A stretch of DNA of 32,176 nt from a virus: IMG/VR virus record IMGVR_UViG_3300028829_000868, positions 1 to 32,176 of that record; one strand, given 5' to 3'. Of this stretch, positions 1 through 8,546 are shown one piece after another (positions within the stretch are counted from its first letter, which is position 1; every line of letters begins with the position of its first letter). The notes beneath the pieces are model-generated. The model did no database searches. It was not told the origin of the DNA and saw only the letters and a list, made by a program, of their open reading frames with translations. The position numbers and the translations under genes were made by a program.

Positions 1-962
1 AGACCGATTTCGCAGCACGGGTTGGTTCCCCAGTCCTTGTCGTTGGACAAGTAGATGCCGGGTTCTCCAGCGTTGGATGCCTCCACTCGCTTCCACAAGT
101 CCAAGAAGAATTCTTTTGTTACTCTGTGCCGCAAAAGTACAGCCGAGTTGTTGGCTCGACCACGCTGTGGGTTGGTCTCCCACCAGTTGCCTGATTTGCA
201 AGAGATCATTTCGTTATCACTTGCCGAGAACAAAGAAATTAGTGCAGCACGACGGATACCGCCAGCCAATACGGCGTCAGCAATATGGCATACAATATCG
301 TGGACCTCAATAGCTGAAAGCTTTTGTCCGTCCTCTTTTTCAGCCAAGACGCCTTCGACCTTTACCAAGCACTCCTTAAGAGGTTGAGGCCCAGGAGCCT
401 TTCCGCCAGAAGTTACAAGGCGAGCACCTTTAGCACGAATATCGCTAAAATCAAATCGTAGCTTTGAGCCACCATAGAAATAGCTGCGGATAAGATGCTT
501 GACGGCATCAGCCCATCCTTCAATACTGTCATTTATCAAATACCTCCTTGATCGGTTAATGTTAGGTTTGTGAATTTCTGGCAGTTCATCAACGTGATGT
601 TGCTGGACAGAATAGCCAACGCCAGTTCCCCCGAGCAACAAAAACATAATCTCACCAAAAACACGCCAGTCATCAACTGGAGCATATGCACAGTTGAAAA
701 CACGGTTAGGTGAAATCTCAATTGGCTTTCCAGCAAACTGCATGGATCGCATAGAAGGTAGCACCTTCTTCTCAAATACATTCTTATATGTCTCTACAAT
801 CTCGCCCTTAAGTTCTGGGTACTTCTTGACGTGCATCTCCATATTTCGAGATACAAGTTCATCCCAGGTTTCTCGTCGCTGCTGCTCAGGCAGATAACGA
901 GCGTATTTCATATACACCGTGATGTCTGATAGGATTTGGGTTGATAGTTGTGTGTTACTCAT
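1..962 (-). CDS. nrdJ: Class II (B12-dependent) ribonucleotide reductase, N-terminal part, cut by window edge
   Basis: Reduces ribonucleotides (probably triphosphates) to deoxyribonucleotides for phage DNA synthesis, using adenosylcobalamin to make the catalytic radical. The reading frame is open from the ATG at 962 to the window edge, 320 codons. The N-terminus reads MSNTQLSTQILSDITVYMKY. It is followed by FNCAY, whose Cys is at about residue 91 and is one of the redox pair, then LLLGGTGVGYSVQ, typical of the monomeric NrdJ/RTPR type. The last visible residues are NPCCEIG (314-320), the N-x-C-x-E active-site loop: Cys316 matches the thiyl-radical Cys and Glu318 the catalytic Glu. The second redox Cys and the C-terminal CxxC would lie beyond the window. 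Its ATG overlaps the helicase stop (ATGA), so translation is probably coupled. Class II rather than class I is inferred from overall similarity and from the lack of any visible small-subunit gene in this window. Confidence 0.85.
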   Translation of the reverse strand, partial: MSNTQLSTQILSDITVYMKYARYLPEQQRRETWDELVSRNMEMHVKKYPELKGEIVETYKNVFEKKVLPSMRSMQFAGKPIEISPNRVFNCAYAPVDDWRVFGEIMFLLLGGTGVGYSVQQHHVDELPEIHKPNINRSRRYLINDSIEGWADAVKHLIRSYFYGGSKLRFDFSDIRAKGARLVTSGGKAPGPQPLKECLVKVEGVLAEKEDGQKLSAIEVHDIVCHIADAVLAGGIRRAALISLFSASDNEMISCKSGNWWETNPQRGRANNSAVLLRHRVTKEFFLDLWKRVEASNAGEPGIYLSNDKDWGTNPCCEIG

Positions 963-2488
963 GCTGTTTTTGTTCCTTGTTCATCTTGTTCAATAACCAA
1001 TTTTTCTTTTAATGCCCGCAGGCTGTTCTTCATATCCGTACTCTTGTCGTGAGTCTCTTTTACCTGTTCCGCTTGTTTCTGTTGAGCGGTTTGAGCCTTC
1101 TTGTCTCGTTGTGCTTTAAACTTTTTATATTTCTGCCGCAAATGTTCGTCTTGCTCTTGCTTGGTCTTTACGACCACCGCATCAATAGATGAGTCTTCGT
1201 CTGGAGGTAGGACCCGAAGATGGACCTTCGCTGTGTTGATCTCCATTGGGAAGACAATGCCGTCAATGCCGTTGCGGTTTTTGGCTACAAACATACGACC
1301 TTTGTTCGCTGTCTTGTCTTCCATTGTGCGGGAGATTGAACAGATAAAGTCAGCCACAAAGCACTTGCTAAATGCTTCACTAATGGATTCCATCGTGATA
1401 ACCTCGGCGTTCAATCCGCTCCGGTTTGTTTGGGAAGCTGTCCATACTGGGATGTCCCATACCTGACCAATGCCTCGAAGCTCCTCATAGATATTACCCA
1501 AGCTGTGACGTAGCTCTTGAGTCTTGAATCCAGAAGCGGTAGGCTTGAGCAGGTCAGCATAGTCAACAATAATCATGTCGGGCTCGATGCCTTTTTGGCG
1601 GAGCTTCTCAAGATGAATACTGATAGTTCTAGTAGAAGCTGACTTGGTTGGGTACTCCTTAATAATAAGTTTCCCTGGAATATGCTCAATCGCTTGCATA
1701 ATAGAATCTTTGTGATTCATTAGTTCTTTTAATTCGATAGCAGTGATGCAGGAGTCATAACGTTGACCCACCACAGTGTCTGCTAGCTCTAGGGTATAAT
1801 GGACTACAGTCTTTCCTTTTATTACCGCCATTGCACCGAGATGGGCTAGAGCCATAGATTTGCCGGCTCCAGTTGGAGCTACAACAACCCCAAGCTCACG
1901 CTTGCCCAGACCGCCTTTGGTAATCAGATCAATCTCATCCCAAGCAGTTGATACTGGGTTTCGCATTTTTAGTTCAAAACGATCGAGAACATCGTCGTGA
2001 TAATCGTGACCGTGGTCGTTATCAGCACCAAGGTTCATGGCGTCATTAATGGTTTTTTGAATCTGTTCGAAGCTTTGGCTCTGGAGCAGTCCCACTGACT
2101 TAAGGATGGCTTCCTTAAGCTTTTGCTTCTTGCAGAAGTCTAGTGACTTCTCCTTGACGTATTCTTGGTCGTCATCGCTGATAGCGTTGGTCTTGATACG
2201 AGCCAAGAAGTCGATGACCTGTTTAATGATACTACTTGAGTAGTCTTCTGTTTGGGTACGAACCACAGAAACCATGGCTTCGTAGGTTGGATGAGGGTAG
2301 TCCTTCTTGTGCTGGAACATTAGGTCCACAAACACTTGAAGGTATTTAAGCTCTAGATAACTGGTGTCCAGTACCTCTTCCATTTGGTTCGCAAAATTGC
2401 GGTCAAAGAGGATAGTTTTTACGAGCTTTTCTTGGAAGGTTTTCCCGAACTTGCTGAAAGTCTCTATATCAACTTGATGCTCAGCCAT
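959..2488 (-). CDS. 41: DnaB-family replicative helicase (T4 gp41-like)
   Basis: Hexameric 5'-3' helicase that unwinds the template at the phage fork. The protein has 509 aa. An N-terminal helical domain (about 1-170) precedes a RecA-like motor. Walker A is APTGAGKS (204-211), Walker B is MIIVDYADLL (305-314), and WTASQTNRSG (349-358) matches DnaB motif H3. The C-terminal 75 or so residues are Lys/Gln/Glu-rich and look like a flexible or coiled tail, which could contact primase or a loader; that is inference. The start at 2488 has an AGAGGT ribosome site six bases upstream. A sigma70-like promoter lies just upstream, and the stop overlaps the reductase start by four bases. No primase is fused to it. 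Confidence 0.9.
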   Translation of the reverse strand: MAEHQVDIETFSKFGKTFQEKLVKTILFDRNFANQMEEVLDTSYLELKYLQVFVDLMFQHKKDYPHPTYEAMVSVVRTQTEDYSSSIIKQVIDFLARIKTNAISDDDQEYVKEKSLDFCKKQKLKEAILKSVGLLQSQSFEQIQKTINDAMNLGADNDHGHDYHDDVLDRFELKMRNPVSTAWDEIDLITKGGLGKRELGVVVAPTGAGKSMALAHLGAMAVIKGKTVVHYTLELADTVVGQRYDSCITAIELKELMNHKDSIMQAIEHIPGKLIIKEYPTKSASTRTISIHLEKLRQKGIEPDMIIVDYADLLKPTASGFKTQELRHSLGNIYEELRGIGQVWDIPVWTASQTNRSGLNAEVITMESISEAFSKCFVADFICSISRTMEDKTANKGRMFVAKNRNGIDGIVFPMEINTAKVHLRVLPPDEDSSIDAVVVKTKQEQDEHLRQKYKKFKAQRDKKAQTAQQKQAEQVKETHDKSTDMKNSLRALKEKLVIEQDEQGTKTA

Positions 2489-2549: not shown

Positions 2550-3503
2550 TTATTTTTTATGAGAATTCAACATAAGCATTAGTTCATCTATGTTTAGAGT
2601 ACCAATACCGTCTTTTAGGAGCATTTTTCTAATTTGGGAGCGGTTAAGATCAACCCCGTCGTTCTTAACCGCATATTTAAGCTTCTGTGTCCCTTGTGAC
2701 GATATGGTAGAGGTATATAGCTGCATAATATCGTAATTTGAAGCAATAATTTCTTCGTTGTCCAGAACGTTTTGATAAGCCTTGATTTTAGAACTATTAT
2801 TTTTTGCGTGCGTCATAATGTCCTTGAGCCCATAGTCTTTATTTTCGGAAAGGAAGGAAAATCTTTTGGCTACAGTTGCTAACCCAAGGCCCTTGACGCC
2901 CTCAAGGTTGTCTGATTTGTCGCCAGTGATAGCTCGTGCCCAGGCAAAATTGCGGGGATGAATATTATACTGTTCGAGAACTTTGTTCTGGTTAAGAACT
3001 TCTTCGTTCTTTCCAGGGCGGACAAGCACTGTTTTGTCGTCACAAAGCTGAATGAAGTCTCGATCGTTCGAGATGATCAGCTTTTGCCAGTCAGCGTACT
3101 CACCGCAATGTACCAGCCATGCAATAATATCATCTGCCTCAACGTTCTCTAGTGAAAGCTGAAGTAGTGGGAGATGATCTAGATATTCAGTAAGCCGCAC
3201 TAATTGAGCATACTTGTTCTCTTTCTCCTCCTCGGGGGAATTGAATTCATAAGCTCGGTTTAGCCTTGGAGCTTTGCGACCAACTTTATAGTTTTTGTTC
3301 TTTTCCCTGCGTTTCTGGGAGCCGCCTGGACCTTCCCAGCAGATGACTACTCGGTCGGGCTTTGCTCGGCGGACCTCTTTCTGAAGTGACCGCATAAAAC
3401 CGGTTAGACCGCCAATTGGTTTCCCGTTCACATCTAGCTGTGGGGACATAACGTAGTTCCTGATAAACAGGTTCATTCCGTCAATAATAAGTAACCGCTT
3501 CAT
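2550..3503 (-). CDS. 5'-3' exonuclease / flap endonuclease (FEN, T4 RNase H type)
   Basis: Removes RNA primers and 5' flaps during lagging-strand synthesis. The 317-aa protein has the whole FEN metal-site pattern: LLIIDGMN with Asp8; VEADDIIAW with the Glu/Asp cluster at 122-125; IISNDRDF with Asp147 and Asp149; and GDKSDN with Asp195 and Asp198. The last is followed by the helix-hairpin-helix segment GVKGLG (202-207). It is a free-standing nuclease, as the polymerase in this genome (7326-8546) carries no 5'-3' nuclease domain. Its ATG overlaps the deaminase stop (ATGA), with GGAG just upstream, so the two are translationally coupled. Confidence 0.88.
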   Translation of the reverse strand: MKRLLIIDGMNLFIRNYVMSPQLDVNGKPIGGLTGFMRSLQKEVRRAKPDRVVICWEGPGGSQKRREKNKNYKVGRKAPRLNRAYEFNSPEEEKENKYAQLVRLTEYLDHLPLLQLSLENVEADDIIAWLVHCGEYADWQKLIISNDRDFIQLCDDKTVLVRPGKNEEVLNQNKVLEQYNIHPRNFAWARAITGDKSDNLEGVKGLGLATVAKRFSFLSENKDYGLKDIMTHAKNNSSKIKAYQNVLDNEEIIASNYDIMQLYTSTISSQGTQKLKYAVKNDGVDLNRSQIRKMLLKDGIGTLNIDELMLMLNSHKK

Positions 3504-3931
3504 TTCTCTTCTCCATCAAACTCTAATATACCTGTTCCGTAGTCAGTCGTAAATACTGCTTTCTTAAAACCATATTTACTGATGAGACCTTGGCACATCT
3601 TACAGGGGCAAGACATTCCTGCTTGTTGGTTTCTGCCTTTGCGAGCCACGTAAATGGTCGCACCTTTTAAATGCTCTTTGTTCTTTACCTTGAGAATTGC
3701 GTCCATTTCAGCATGGATAGTTCGAGTGAAAACTTCTCCGTCTTCATCAATGCCCACAGCACCAGGGTGGGTCTTATCTCGATTTCTACCTACTGAAAGG
3801 ACTCGCCCTGCTTTTACAATAACAGCAGCGTGGCGATGCTGAATGCCTTGGCTGTACTCTTCTCCGTCGATGCGGCGTAACGCCAGTCTAAGAAACTTAT
3901 TGCGGATCTCATTCGTCGGGTCGGATTCCAT
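3500..3931 (-). CDS. Zinc-dependent cytidine/deoxycytidylate deaminase
   Basis: Probably converts dCMP to dUMP and so feeds dTMP synthesis; this fits its place among dNTP and replication genes. The protein has 143 aa. The family motif HAE (73-75) gives a zinc His and the catalytic Glu. The SCPCKMC segment gives PCxxC with zinc ligands Cys110 and Cys113. The C-terminus (FTTDYGTGI) is usual for the CMP/dCMP deaminase fold. The sequence alone does not separate dCMP deaminase from a cytidine deaminase or another member of the fold. The start at 3931 has a weak GGGA about 13 bases upstream. It lies between uvsX (14-base gap) and the exonuclease (four-base overlap). Confidence 0.82.
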   Translation of the reverse strand: MESDPTNEIRNKFLRLALRRIDGEEYSQGIQHRHAAVIVKAGRVLSVGRNRDKTHPGAVGIDEDGEVFTRTIHAEMDAILKVKNKEHLKGATIYVARKGRNQQAGMSCPCKMCQGLISKYGFKKAVFTTDYGTGILEFDGEEK

Positions 3932-3945
3932 ACTCGTTGCATTCC

Positions 3946-5016
3946 CTACTTCTTCCCTATTCTATACTCATCTTCGATAATGTCAAGAACTTTATTCTTG
4001 AACTTTTTGTCTTCCAAGAGGGACAGGAATTCTTTAGCTTGGAACTTTTTATCTTCGCCGTCAACATTGATAGTATACCAAGCACCACTACGAGTGCAGC
4101 CGGGTGTATTAGCAATAGCACTAAGCCAGGATCCTTCATCATCAACTCCAACTCGATCGTTTGCAAGATCGAACAATACGTCGAACTGGCATGAGCGAGG
4201 GCACGGACCAAAGCGGGACTTCATAGTCTTAGCACTGGTGTGGAACCCAATCACCTGTTTCTTCTCGTTGAGGATCTGACCGTTGGCTTTGCCCTTGTGT
4301 TGAGTGAGCCAGATACGACTAGAAGCGTGGTAGGGCAAAGCCTTACCACCTGGTTCGACTCGGTTATCCCCAAACATCACGCCGATATTGGTCTTCAGTT
4401 GGTTCGTGAAGACTACAGCGATTTGTTCTTTGCCAAGTGCCTCTGTTACTTTACGCATACCTTTGGCTAGTGCCTTAGCAGTTAAGCCGATTCGACTGTT
4501 GGGGTCATAATCGCCCTCAACCTCTGCTCGAACCGGAGTACCAGCAACACTATCCCAAACGATACAAACCAATCGATCGGGGGCTTTCTCCCTGATAAGA
4601 CCGATAAGTCTCTCAATGTTCTCGAACACCTCTTCAATGGTTCCGGGCTGTACATAAATAAAGTTATTCTTTGTATCGAGCCCTAGTTGTTCCATGAAGT
4701 CAGGGGAGGCTGCATTTTCAGTGTCGATATAGACCGCCAAGCCTCCCATCTTTTGAGTGTTCGCCAGGATCTGGGTGACGATCAAACTCTTACCACTAGC
4801 AGATTCACCTGCAATAGTCGTAAGCTTGCCCACAGGAATCCCGCCATCACGACGATTAGAGATAATATAGTTCAGAAGAGTTGAACCTGTTGAGATCCAA
4901 GTCTTTACGTCTGTTGGGTTTTCCCCATGCAGATCATATGCAATGTTTTCTTTTGCTGCCTTGTTTAACTCGCTACGCAAGTCATTTACAAGACTCTTTT
5001 GTTTTGTACTAGCCAT
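3946..5016 (-). CDS. uvsX: UvsX/RecA-type recombinase
   Basis: Strand-exchange ATPase for recombination-dependent replication and repair; it acts on DNA covered by the single-strand binding protein encoded just upstream. The chosen start gives 356 aa (MASTKQKSLVND). Walker A is GESASGKS (70-77), Walker B is LVCIVWD (149-155), and VVFTNQLKTNIG matches the motif preceding DNA-binding loop L2. The reading frame is open to a TTG at 5076. The ATG at 5016 is preferred because it has GGAG five bases upstream and because the extra 20 residues would read through a GC-rich hairpin. Confidence 0.9.
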   Translation of the reverse strand: MASTKQKSLVNDLRSELNKAAKENIAYDLHGENPTDVKTWISTGSTLLNYIISNRRDGGIPVGKLTTIAGESASGKSLIVTQILANTQKMGGLAVYIDTENAASPDFMEQLGLDTKNNFIYVQPGTIEEVFENIERLIGLIREKAPDRLVCIVWDSVAGTPVRAEVEGDYDPNSRIGLTAKALAKGMRKVTEALGKEQIAVVFTNQLKTNIGVMFGDNRVEPGGKALPYHASSRIWLTQHKGKANGQILNEKKQVIGFHTSAKTMKSRFGPCPRSCQFDVLFDLANDRVGVDDEGSWLSAIANTPGCTRSGAWYTINVDGEDKKFQAKEFLSLLEDKKFKNKVLDIIEDEYRIGKK

Positions 5017-5034
5017 TTTATCTCCAAAGGTGGA

Positions 5035-5058
5035 GAGGCACCTGTAACCCCGTGCCTC
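5035..5058 (-). promoter_or_regulatory. Hairpin just upstream of the uvsX ribosome site
   Basis: On the coding strand GAGGCAC and GTGCCTC form a perfect 7-bp stem around a 10-base loop, in the gap between the ssb stop (5077) and the uvsX start (5016). No T-run follows, so it is not a simple terminator. It may protect the uvsX message, mark a processing site, or set the uvsX level relative to ssb. Confidence 0.5.
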
Positions 5059-5076
5059 CCTGCGGGTAGCGGTCAA

Positions 5077-5862
5077 CTATGCTAAAAGATCGTCGAACGC
5101 TGACTCAATGTCTGAAACACCTTCAAGAGCGTTGCCGCTGTTGGCTGCTGGAGCAGTGGTGGTGTCGTTGTTGTAACGAGTTGTTTCGTTACCACCGTCG
5201 GTTGTTTCAGTCTCACCCAAAGTTTGCATGAGAACCTTTTCACACTGCTCGAAGGTAGTACGTTCGAAGACGTCATCTACTACAGGCAGGGTTTGCAGAA
5301 GAGTGTTGACTTGCTCTTCAGAGTCGGCGAGGGCACTAGTGCGTCGCATTGGACGGATATCGGTAGTTGGGAATGATTGTCCCTGCTTCTTACCGTAGTC
5401 AATGCGAAGGTCAGTACCCTTCTCGGTATCGGTGATATCACCGTATTCTGGATCCAGTACTACATCAAGTAGTGCTTGGTAGGTGGTGCGGGAAAAGCCC
5501 CACCAGCGAACACCCTTGTCCTCTTCGCCACGGACGAGGACGGGAGCAAATACTCGCATCTTAGGCCAGAAACGCTTGGCAGCCTCCTTGGAAGCGTCAG
5601 TGCCTTCGTTCCAAAGCGAAGTGCCGTACTCGGCAATTGGATCATCGTCACCAAAAGTCCGTGGGCTTAGAACGGTCGTGCGACCTTCGGCACCCATTGA
5701 ATAATGGTAGTATGCTTCAAAGAACGGATCACCGCTCTCGGGACAGACAAGACGAAGCTGGTGTGTTCCCTCTTCTGGCTTCCAGAAGTAGTCATTGGTG
5801 TCTCCACCTCGATTGGTTAGGGCAGCGTGTTTTGCCCGCATCTTACTTAAGTCAATACCCAT
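5077..5862 (-). CDS. 32: Single-stranded DNA-binding protein (T4 gp32-like)
   Basis: Coats single-stranded DNA at forks and recombination intermediates and organises the other replication proteins. The protein has 261 aa, a little shorter than T4 gp32 (301 aa). The core is rich in aromatic and basic residues (FWKPEEGTHQLRLVCPE, FFEAYYHYSMG, WWGFSRTTYQALLDVV). A Thr/Asn-rich linker (about 210-240) leads to an acidic tail ending DIESAFDDLLA, the classic protein-docking tail of phage SSBs. The zinc-binding Cys/His cluster of T4 gp32 is not evident. The start has a strong AAGGAG site, and a promoter-like sequence lies upstream. The order ssb then uvsX fits their joint function. Confidence 0.82.
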   Translation of the reverse strand: MGIDLSKMRAKHAALTNRGGDTNDYFWKPEEGTHQLRLVCPESGDPFFEAYYHYSMGAEGRTTVLSPRTFGDDDPIAEYGTSLWNEGTDASKEAAKRFWPKMRVFAPVLVRGEEDKGVRWWGFSRTTYQALLDVVLDPEYGDITDTEKGTDLRIDYGKKQGQSFPTTDIRPMRRTSALADSEEQVNTLLQTLPVVDDVFERTTFEQCEKVLMQTLGETETTDGGNETTRYNNDTTTAPAANSGNALEGVSDIESAFDDLLA

Positions 5863-5983: not shown

Positions 5984-6418
5984 TTATTCTTCGGCTGGCT
6001 CTTCTTCAATTTTGAAGATTTTGCTGACCTCAACTGGGTGTGCTTTGAGTTCTTTTCCCGATGTGAGGAGGATAGAATTCTCGTACTGTGTCCAGTCAAG
6101 CTTGAGATCTCTGCCTGTCTTCCCGTCATGCTGGGAAGCGACAGCGGCATTGAGAGCGTTGATAGTGTATAGAGTATTGGTCTGCTTCTTACGATGCATA
6201 CGCATGGTGAAAAGACGAGGGTTGAAGGGCTTACCCTTTTCTACCACGGCGTTATAAGTAATAATCTTCTTTTCGGGATTATCCTTGTCCTCTAGCAAAA
6301 AAATGAGATTGTTAGTAATCTCAATGTTATTGACTATGAACTCAACCTCTTCTTGTATTTTTTGCTCGTCGTCAGTCATCAGAAACGATGCTAGCAAAAC
6401 TCCACGTCTGTTCGTCAT
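5984..6418 (-). CDS. Unknown 144-aa protein of the replication module
   Basis: I do not recognise this protein. It has 144 aa, is soluble and mixed alpha/beta, with no signal or membrane segment. An acidic N-terminal stretch (TDDEQKIQEEVEFIVNN) is followed by a basic centre (TMRMHRKKQTNTLYTINALN) and a conserved-looking LDWTQYENSILLTSGKEL, then an acidic end (IEEEPAEE). The centre suggests nucleic-acid or nucleotide contact, but that is inference. A TATAAT hexamer lies 32 bases before the ATG. The nearest purine-rich site (AGGGGA) is about 14 bases upstream, so initiation may be weak. It lies between the FtsZ-like gene and ssb. Confidence 0.75.
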   Translation of the reverse strand: MTNRRGVLLASFLMTDDEQKIQEEVEFIVNNIEITNNLIFLLEDKDNPEKKIITYNAVVEKGKPFNPRLFTMRMHRKKQTNTLYTINALNAAVASQHDGKTGRDLKLDWTQYENSILLTSGKELKAHPVEVSKIFKIEEEPAEE

Positions 6419-6475: not shown

Positions 6476-7333
6476 TTACTTGCCCGCTAGAGCCTGAATA
6501 TTAGAGGAATAGGCTACACAGAGAACCATCATCGTCTCAAGAGTTGTCTCATACACTGAAAAGCTTGTGGATACATCTTCTGTTTTGTAGCCTTTGACGT
6601 GCTCTTTTATGCGTTTAACAAGTGTTGTGTCTTCAGCTAGCTCTTCTTTTGGTACCCCATAAAAGAAGTGGATATCTTTAACATCCTCTATGTTGAAAAG
6701 GAGGTTGATATCTTTTTTATCTTCTTCCAGCGAAGAGACCCCGTAAGTTATGACTCTAGCAATTTCAGGGGGGCTGATTGGATTAGCTAGGACGGGCTTC
6801 GTATGATTGAAGAAGTTTATCATCGCCACTACATAAGCCACAAAATAAGAGATGGTTTTCTCGTACTCATTTACTGGAACGTGACCCGCCAACTCTTCCA
6901 CCTTCAATTTGTCCACCAGAATGATGTTCTCAAAGAGTCCCGAACGAGCGTATTCCTGCAAGATATTGAAGGCTATCTTGTCGTCACGCTTCTGGATCTC
7001 TGATATCATCTGCCTATCAGGGCAAACATAAAGAACATTTAATTTAACGTCTTTTATAGTTTCTAGGATTTTTAAGGTTGCCCCAGAGATAGGATCGCCG
7101 CCCTCTATAATAAGAAGAACTTGATCTTTTTTCTTGATTGACCGCAGATAAACGCTGACCTCATCAATATCAATATTCGCCTCGAATGAAGCCATGTCAC
7201 CGTGCTCGCCGATGGAAAGGCTCCCACGCTCATCAATATCGCCATCAATCTTGTAAATTCTGTATTCAGGGTAGGCCGTTAGCTCTTCTGCGATTGCACA
7301 GCCAAGCTTCCCTAATCCAATAACTTTATCCAA
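6476..7333 (-). CDS. Diverged FtsZ/tubulin-like protein (putative)
   Basis: The 285-aa protein follows the order of elements of an FtsZ/tubulin fold. It opens with a strand and glycine loop, KVIGLGKLG (3-11), comparable to FtsZ VIGVGGGG. Then comes IYKIDGD (26-32), in the place of FtsZ VNTD. LLIIEGGDPISG (73-84) sits where FtsZ has the GGGTGTG signature. A strand-helix-strand unit follows, ending ENIILVDK (135-142), in the place of LIVIPND. A helix NEYEKTISYFVAYVVAMI (155-172) fits the FtsZ core helix. The C-terminal half has strands (DIHFFYG, STSFSV, MMVLCVAYSS) like the FtsZ C-domain. The signature loop is degenerate, so GTP hydrolysis is uncertain. Another Rossmann-like nucleotide-binding fold is the main alternative. 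The start is TTG at 7333, with AAGGA eight bases upstream. It overlaps the polymerase stop by eight bases. Confidence 0.5.
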   Translation of the reverse strand: MDKVIGLGKLGCAIAEELTAYPEYRIYKIDGDIDERGSLSIGEHGDMASFEANIDIDEVSVYLRSIKKKDQVLLIIEGGDPISGATLKILETIKDVKLNVLYVCPDRQMISEIQKRDDKIAFNILQEYARSGLFENIILVDKLKVEELAGHVPVNEYEKTISYFVAYVVAMINFFNHTKPVLANPISPPEIARVITYGVSSLEEDKKDINLLFNIEDVKDIHFFYGVPKEELAEDTTLVKRIKEHVKGYKTEDVSTSFSVYETTLETMMVLCVAYSSNIQALAGK

Positions 7334-8546
7334 GTTGTATATCCTTCATAGAACCCAGAGTTTTACCTCTTTTTATATTTACCATGAAATTCCCGAAATT
7401 CGTGGAACTCATAAGTGTAACCAATGATTTAAGTAGGTGCTCATCCTCTTTTTTCATATCAATTACGATAGCATCGTGGATTAAAAAGGCGATATGAGAG
7501 CCGGCAGACTGCTTTCGTAGGAGGTATTCAAGCTTTAGAGCCTGCTTTAGGGTTAGTTCTGCGGCGGTAGATTGCACCAAATAGTTGAGAGCGTGATGTT
7601 CGCTCGTATCGGGTATTTCCTTCCTAAACGGTGTTCTAACTGTATTGCCGTCCCAGTATTCTTTTAGGAGTCGGTCCTTCTCGTAGAACTCTGCTAGTTT
7701 TAGTACGTCTTGCCTGATGACTGCTGAACGAGAGCCGTATAGCCAGGCAAAAAACGCTATTTTTGCCTTGTCCCTCGTGTGGATGTCTGTGAAGATTTCC
7801 TTAAGGTGGAAGTCATGGACATCTCCCTCTGGTTGTTCCTTGCCGAGAAGACCCAGCAGGGTGCGAACTTCAGCACCGTTAAAATCTAGTTCGATGAAGT
7901 AGTCATTCTGTGGTTTGACGGCTGAACGGAATTCCTTGTTCATTGTGAGGATAGGCACGCAACCCTTTTTAGTTGTAAGGCGACCAGTCTTGGTGCCAAA
8001 CTGATTGTACTTGACGCAGGGGGCTGCCTCTATAATGTTTTTGGCATGATGCTTTAGTTTTGGATCCTGTAGATATGCTGATACTCTCTGCTTATCAACT
8101 GTGACTCTTTTGTGGCTGATATCTTCTAGCATCATTGAGACGTGCTTATAGAAGTCATACCTTACGGGCTTTTCTATGTTCTTTGAGACGTATTCAGTTA
8201 TTTTATTTTTTACCTCGCAAAACTCAACCAAGAACCTTTCGGGAACTAGGTCGAAAAAGCAGTTTTCAGAGGTATCGACCTGCGAGATCGCTAGAGAGCG
8301 TTTGAATGCGAGAACTTTATTGGATACGTCCTCCCAGTCATCCTTTAGGTACTCTGGGATTGCGTCGGCAATCTTGCCGCCCTCAAGATATAACGAAATG
8401 TATTCTATATCCAAGTCCCGTAGGTACGGAGCGTACTTCCAGGTTTGAGTGAGTTCAGGAGGGAACCCCTCTGGGTCGAAGATTAGCTGATTATCGGCAT
8501 AAATGCCGACGCATTCGGTTTTATCGTCAAGAGTCTGAAATAACAA
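7326..8546 (-). CDS. Short family-A DNA polymerase without exonuclease domain
   Basis: Likely the replicative DNA polymerase. The 406-aa protein carries the family-A palm and fingers: TGRLT (187-191), motif A ELDFNGAEVR with catalytic Asp221, motif B RDKAKIAFFAWLYG (258-271) with Arg258, Lys262, Phe266 and Tyr270 in the positions of E. coli Arg754/Lys758/Phe762/Tyr766, NYLVQSTAAE (321-330), and motif C LIHDAIVID with catalytic Asp358. Motif C is HDA instead of the usual HDE. The first 180 residues show no 3'-5' exonuclease motifs and no 5'-3' nuclease. Proofreading, if any, must come from a separate gene outside this window. T4 itself uses a family-B enzyme, so this is a replacement or a separate lineage. 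The start is a TTG at 8546 with GAGG five bases upstream. The gene follows the last virion gene after 10 bases. Confidence 0.85.
   Translation of the reverse strand: MLFQTLDDKTECVGIYADNQLIFDPEGFPPELTQTWKYAPYLRDLDIEYISLYLEGGKIADAIPEYLKDDWEDVSNKVLAFKRSLAISQVDTSENCFFDLVPERFLVEFCEVKNKITEYVSKNIEKPVRYDFYKHVSMMLEDISHKRVTVDKQRVSAYLQDPKLKHHAKNIIEAAPCVKYNQFGTKTGRLTTKKGCVPILTMNKEFRSAVKPQNDYFIELDFNGAEVRTLLGLLGKEQPEGDVHDFHLKEIFTDIHTRDKAKIAFFAWLYGSRSAVIRQDVLKLAEFYEKDRLLKEYWDGNTVRTPFRKEIPDTSEHHALNYLVQSTAAELTLKQALKLEYLLRKQSAGSHIAFLIHDAIVIDMKKEDEHLLKSLVTLMSSTNFGNFMVNIKRGKTLGSMKDIQLG

Follow-up and report, generated by a model that had tools for sequence, protein, structure and literature searches.

What does the gene beside the DNA polymerase of an uncultivated marine virus encode, and if it encodes a tubulin, what would a tubulin be doing in a replication operon? 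We analyzed a stretch of 32,176 nucleotides from IMG/VR (record IMGVR_UViG_3300028829_000868; hereafter, the window). An earlier, sequence-only reading had proposed that a 285-residue protein from this window matches FtsZ element by element. We are highly confident that it is a pseudo-tubulin, that is, a shortened, GTPase-dead protein with the tubulin/FtsZ fold, which is encoded in the replication operon of a marine Far-T4 phage and is made with the polymerase.

A conserved gene that is joined to a DNA polymerase

The interval 6476-7333 is a single open reading frame of 285 codons on the minus strand (the sequence-only reading named no strand). It and its neighbors are as follows.

6476..7333, minus strand: pseudo-tubulin gene, 285 amino acids, TTG start at 7333 (identified from its family, its AlphaFold2 model, and fold and profile matches)
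7326..8546, minus strand: family A DNA polymerase, 406 amino acids; its 3' end overlaps the start of the pseudo-tubulin gene by 8 nucleotides
5984..6418, minus strand: orf144, conserved, the next gene downstream of the pseudo-tubulin (AlphaFold2 fold, pLDDT 91.9)
5077..5862, minus strand: gp32-like single-strand DNA-binding protein (SSB)
3946..5076, minus strand: UvsX-like recombinase
3500..3931, minus strand: dCMP deaminase, between UvsX and the exonuclease
2550..3503, minus strand: 5'-3' exonuclease
959..2488, minus strand: DnaB-like replicative helicase

The TTG start and an upstream ribosome-binding stretch (AAGGA) are retained in close relatives. In IMG/VR, one protein query returned 13 loci and one profile query returned 50, which gave 41 distinct sequences. 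Thus, the window protein has at least 41 distinct homologues (34-100% identity to it; alignment A2), all of them from uncultivated viral contigs. The pairwise nonsynonymous divergence (dN) is 0.08-0.24, and synonymous sites are saturated or nearly so, which resembles the pattern for the neighboring polymerase; a dN/dS ratio is not reliably quotable because of this saturation in most pairs. Low dN with saturated synonymous change implies strong purifying selection. Given the conserved start, the homologues, the low dN, and the linkage to the polymerase, this is a real gene.

The pseudo-tubulin lies directly 3' of a family A polymerase in 45 of 45 loci (a count that includes some contigs fetched twice). 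The ends of the two genes overlap or abut wherever they were read, usually with the 8-nucleotide overlap. In contigs that extend further, the next genes are orf144 and/or SSB and UvsX, with order and strand kept. The sequence-only reading had placed the protein next to the polymerase of a T4-like replication operon: the adjacency holds, but the enzyme is not T4-like, as it is the family A polymerase of a Far-T4-type phage rather than the family B polymerase of T4. No exonuclease domain was recognized in the window's polymerase (7326-8546), so the proofreading part, if any, is encoded elsewhere.

We also made some observations about other genes in the operon. The 144-residue product of orf144, encoded between the pseudo-tubulin and SSB, is highly conserved, with a nearly invariant RKKQTNTLYTINALN core; its AlphaFold2 model is confident and had no significant match in the PDB. 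A divergent clade (L059; 33% identical) retains the order polymerase, pseudo-tubulin, SSB and has no match to orf144; a different small open reading frame lies in its place, between 6224 and 6598 of L059. The dCMP deaminase was not matched in several relatives (for instance, L033, L038, and L041) and therefore looks like an optional insertion.

A predicted tubulin fold

Neither the window protein nor the two profiles had a significant match in sequence searches of Pfam, PHROGs, and the PDB. Relatives were likewise missing from 50,697 named phage records, as searched by tblastn. None turned up in a scan of 84,980 prokaryote genomes either, which leaves no link to a host. In RM378, Flavobacterium phage immuto, Microcystis phage Mel-JY01, and two megaphages, a profile search found no homologue of the pseudo-tubulin, and no protein scored above the Tubulin cut-off.

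AlphaFold2, run on alignment A2, gave a monomer model of the window protein with a mean pLDDT of 92.9 and a pTM of 0.91. The strands (E) and helices (H) are, by residue, E3-7, H8-20, E25-30, H47-53, H56-62, E71-77, H81-91, E97-104, H112-130, E136-141, H142-149, H154-176 (the core helix), E182-184, E194-200, E218-228, H229-234, H238-247, E255-263, and E269-276. This is the order in FtsZ, but the T3 region is shortened, and H8 and H9 are not evident.

6806..6874, minus strand: core helix (equivalent to H7), residues 154-176, from the AlphaFold2 model and the profile alignment

The model was compared to the PDB with Foldseek: the 50 best matches listed were all FtsZ or TubZ and covered both domains, with a best E value of 4e-13, a TM score (normalized by query length) of up to 0.74, and about 310-320 aligned columns for the 285-residue query. 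A top match to FtsZ, TubZ, or PhuZ across both domains was the test that the sequence-only reading had set. Among viral predicted structures, the best match was to an "FtsZ cell division GTPase" from an uncultured phage (TM score of 0.77), and entry I1VXE4, which we take to be PhuZ, was also found (0.50). Thus, the model predicts the two-domain fold of tubulin and FtsZ, with a Rossmann-like N-terminal domain, a long core helix, and an alpha/beta C-terminal domain.

Profile-profile comparison with hhalign points to homology as well, for the N-terminal domain and the core helix; the assignment of the C-terminal domain comes from AlphaFold2. Alignment A2 matched an alignment of TubZ and FtsZ (A4) with a score of 45.0 (E = 2.6e-5, probability 74.8), and the match runs from residue 3 to residue 176, in register through the core helix. 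The highest score among 60 column-shuffled controls was 21.9, and reversed profiles scored 15.6-15.9. Against these phages' own TubZ (described below) alone, the score was 32.6 (shuffle maximum, 22.1); against FtsZ alone, it was 23.2 (shuffle maximum, 22.7; E = 0.037), which is unconvincing by itself. Homology to the tubulin/FtsZ superfamily is thus detectable, above all 60 shuffles, and the protein is nearer to TubZ than to FtsZ in sequence, although FtsZ heads the list of fold matches. Overall, the proposed likeness to FtsZ was borne out: the order of elements matches, and both Foldseek and hhalign go beyond chance.

Loss of GTP-binding and catalytic residues

Three of the nucleotide loops can be placed in the gene.

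7298..7318, minus strand: T1-equivalent loop, residues 6-12 (GLGKLGC), from alignments
7082..7102, minus strand: T4-equivalent signature loop, residues 78-84, where GGDPISG replaces GGGTGTG, from alignments
6764..6793, minus strand: T7-equivalent loop, residues 181-190, placed by the order of elements in the AlphaFold2 model

In the T1 loop, G6, G8, and G11 are invariant across the 41 sequences, and the asparagine of FtsZ's GGGGGN is gone. The T4 signature GGGTG[ST]G does not occur in the family, which has GG[DE]P[IV]SG instead (P81 in 38 of 41). The catalytic aspartates of the T7 loop (D209 and D212 of E. coli FtsZ) are invariant across our FtsZ comparison set, whereas no aspartate is conserved at residues 181-191 of the 41 homologues. 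The asparagine in T6 that contacts guanine (N165 in FtsZ, N204 in the phage TubZ) aligns with lysine or arginine at position 142 in 35 of 41, and the glutamate in T5 (E170 in TubZ) aligns with a hydrophobic residue, M109, as read from the gapped A2-A4 alignment. Strong conservation is also seen outside these loops, for example in YPEYRIYKI and QEYARSG.

With these losses in T1, T4, T5, T6, and T7, which are read from alignments, the short T3, and no evident H8 or H9, hydrolysis of GTP by the window protein is very unlikely, and canonical binding of GTP is doubtful. The earlier suggestion of a degenerate signature and possibly no hydrolysis is strengthened, as the T7 aspartates are missing from all 41 sequences too. 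The suggestion of a nucleotide sensor is weakened by the loss of the guanine-contact residues.

A Far-T4 phage

The remaining recognized genes in the window are structural genes of the T4 type: the gp23 capsid protein, the tail sheath, the baseplate hub, and the prohead protease. By tblastn, the best matches of gp23 were Mel-JY01, LR756508, LR756511, Flavobacterium phage immuto, and RM378; cyanophages ranked lower. This ranking groups gp23 with RM378 and not with T4 or the cyanophages, which places the phage in the Far-T4 group. The Far-T4 group has been described as widespread in aquatic environments, and its predicted hosts are Bacteroidetes/Flavobacteriales (PMC7198788, PMC13037479). Neither tubulin nor FtsZ is mentioned in three papers on Far-T4 phages (PMC4360716, PMC7198788, PMC13037479), in a search that did not extend to subscription journals or preprints. 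In six related contigs of up to 190 kb, we found no member of the chimallin family (phrog_4795) by a search that detected the control, 201phi2-1, and that would miss a very diverged shell.

A second, TubZ-like tubulin in the same phages

A search of long related contigs with Pfam's Tubulin model identified another tubulin.

L076:3001-4137: TubZ-like tubulin, 378 amino acids (also in L073, L074, L075, L101, L126, and L134)

This protein scores above the curated cut-offs for both PF00091 (Tubulin) and TubZ-like_C, and the window protein matches neither. It matches TubZ of B. cereus in the PDB (4ei7; E = 8.6e-12) and is related to gp138 of Bacillus phage G (20.6% identity, E = 8e-6) and to plasmid TubZ proteins. 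The glycines of T4 are kept, and the pair of aspartates in T7 (D248 and D251) is invariant, so it is apparently an active GTPase. At least 80 contigs encode it (84-100% identity), and it is the best-conserved gene of its block (median of 94%, versus 81% for the large terminase, TerL). The gene order TM109-TubZ-TM127-Zn138-orf188-TerL is kept almost without exception: after TubZ and its flanking protein come a cysteine-rich protein, orf188, and the T4-type large terminase.

Other features of this region, again in the coordinates of L076, include the following.

L076:2658-2987 and L076:4139-4522: two small proteins, each with hydrophobic stretches, on either side of TubZ in nearly all loci
L076:1439-2068: upstream of TubZ, a domain like 2-thiouracil desulfurase (PF04463) fused with DUF5522, in 25 of 80 loci

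The two flanking proteins are probably membrane proteins. They could be membrane anchors for filaments of TubZ, or they could be lysis proteins.

The two tubulin genes are in separate operons. In all 12 of the checked contigs that carry both, they are on the same strand, and TubZ is 28-33 kb (28.5-32.6 kb) upstream; contigs with both include ones of 190.5, 178.6, and 171.9 kb. Where a checked contig carries the pseudo-tubulin alone, it always ends less than 30 kb upstream of that gene. The window has just 24.8 kb upstream of the pseudo-tubulin, so the absence of TubZ from the window is expected. We infer that the window's own phage encodes TubZ at a place that falls outside the window.

Comparison to known tubulins

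The window protein shares with FtsZ the fold of both domains, the order of elements, the glycine-rich T1 and T4 loops, and the core helix. Unlike FtsZ, it has no Pfam match, it has GGxPxSG in place of GGGTGTG, it lacks D209 and D212, its T3 is short, H8 and H9 are not evident, it has no C-terminal tail, and its gene belongs to a phage replication operon. TubZ, from the type III partitioning systems of Bacillus plasmids and phage c-st, is its nearest family by profile-profile comparison, and the second tubulin of these phages is TubZ-like. However, the window protein lacks the GTPase residues of TubZ, is about 90 amino acids shorter than the phage TubZ, and is encoded with a polymerase, whereas TubZ sits beside a TubR-type gene. 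With PhuZ, from jumbo phages that form a nucleus, it shares the tubulin fold and the fact of being phage encoded. It does not match the PHROG for PhuZ (phrog_4733), and the listed families of the 41 members do not include this PHROG either. In contrast to the phages with PhuZ, the contigs analyzed here are of up to about 190 kb, encode a T4-type capsid, and show no match to chimallin. Phage G's FtsZ-like gp138 is a relative of the second tubulin but not detectably of the window protein.

What might the pseudo-tubulin do?

We think that the most likely role of the pseudo-tubulin, with a probability of about 0.4, is as a non-hydrolyzing partner that links replication to filaments of the phage's own TubZ. 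The TubZ-like GTPase, whose gene lies in the packaging operon and is flanked by those of two probable membrane proteins, would form a dynamic filament. Via the longitudinal interface of tubulins, and without hydrolyzing GTP, the pseudo-tubulin would stack on, cap, or decorate TubZ; it would also tether the filament to the site of replication, that is, to the machinery along with which it is translated. Replicated genomes would thereby be positioned and delivered for packaging. We infer that the pseudo-tubulin may contact TubZ, the polymerase, or SSB, and that polymerization and positioning may be involved. The predicted fold, the loss of the catalytic residues, the coupling to the polymerase, and the presence of TubZ in every contig checked that is long enough all favor this partnership. 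Some findings count against it: the two tubulins are in separate operons, and the neighbors of TubZ may be lysis proteins. Also, the two have evolved at very different rates (84-100% identity for TubZ and 34-100% for the pseudo-tubulin), which does not favor an obligate one-to-one interface.

The strongest competing explanation is that a tubulin fold was repurposed as a monomeric or dimeric accessory of the polymerase, with a processivity, loading, or regulatory role; it would form no filaments, and its only link to TubZ would be shared ancestry. We consider this somewhat less likely. The gene's invariable place after the polymerase, the translational overlap, the lack of a recognized exonuclease domain in the polymerase, the disappearance of the nucleotide-contact residues, and the strong conservation away from the nucleotide loops (YPEYRIYKI and QEYARSG) would all fit. 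A mere accessory would not need a fold that is tubulin-like over both domains, however, and TubZ is present in the same phages. It is quite improbable that the pseudo-tubulin instead forms a stable, non-hydrolyzing filament or scaffold by itself and organizes the replication site independently of TubZ. Mutants of FtsZ or TubZ without the catalytic aspartate form stable filaments, as a tubulin fold without the T7 aspartates might, but canonical assembly of tubulins requires GTP bound at the interface. In the pseudo-tubulin, T3 is shortened, the contact residues in T5 and T6 are replaced, and the C-terminal domain has no clear H8 or H9.

The sequence-only reading had also offered a decoy for the host's FtsZ, a mimic that would insert into or cap its filaments and so block division during infection. 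FtsZ does top the list of fold matches, and another phage protein, Gp0.4 of T7, forms a complex with the host's FtsZ (PMC13423816). Nevertheless, we found no support for a decoy, and we rate its chances as slim: the gene lies in the replication operon, after the polymerase in every locus examined, and is conserved like the polymerase, which suggests a core role in replication and not an accessory role in host takeover. The sequence is also nearer to TubZ: the profile E value was 2.6e-5 with TubZ included (the TubZ/FtsZ alignment) versus 0.037 for FtsZ. As for a plain Rossmann or dehydrogenase-like protein with a superficial likeness to FtsZ, the GxGxxG near the N terminus resembles a dinucleotide-binding loop, and a few homologues have weak matches to TrkA_N or NAD_binding_2 (E = 0.04-0.14). 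But the profile match to TubZ continues through the core helix, and the 50 best fold matches listed include no dehydrogenase, with FtsZ matched across both domains at E = 4e-13. This explanation is essentially refuted.

Implications

The phages known to have tubulins are chiefly jumbo phages that form a nucleus (PhuZ) and plasmid-like phages (TubZ). PhuZ and TubZ are also the ones covered in reviews (PMC7950403, PMC7824862). Here, a widespread but uncharacterized group of marine T4-like viruses of bacteria proved to carry a pseudo-tubulin that is joined to the polymerase and, as an apparently new finding, a second, TubZ-like tubulin near the terminase. The pseudo-tubulin offers a cytoskeletal protein in the form of a natural pseudo-enzyme, and a simple, non-jumbo phage may have a two-part tubulin system. 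A more specific picture is possible, though we hold it only tentatively: in these abundant, non-jumbo marine phages, which have T4-type capsids and lack the known nuclear shell, a TubZ motor flanked by membrane proteins and a polymerase-coupled pseudo-tubulin that tethers replicating DNA to it would form a track, much like a spindle, that leads from replication to packaging. More broadly, with a GTPase-dead tubulin attached to the polymerase gene and a nearly invariant TubZ beside the terminase, one could ask how replicating DNA is positioned and handed over to packaging in a phage that lacks the known nuclear shell.
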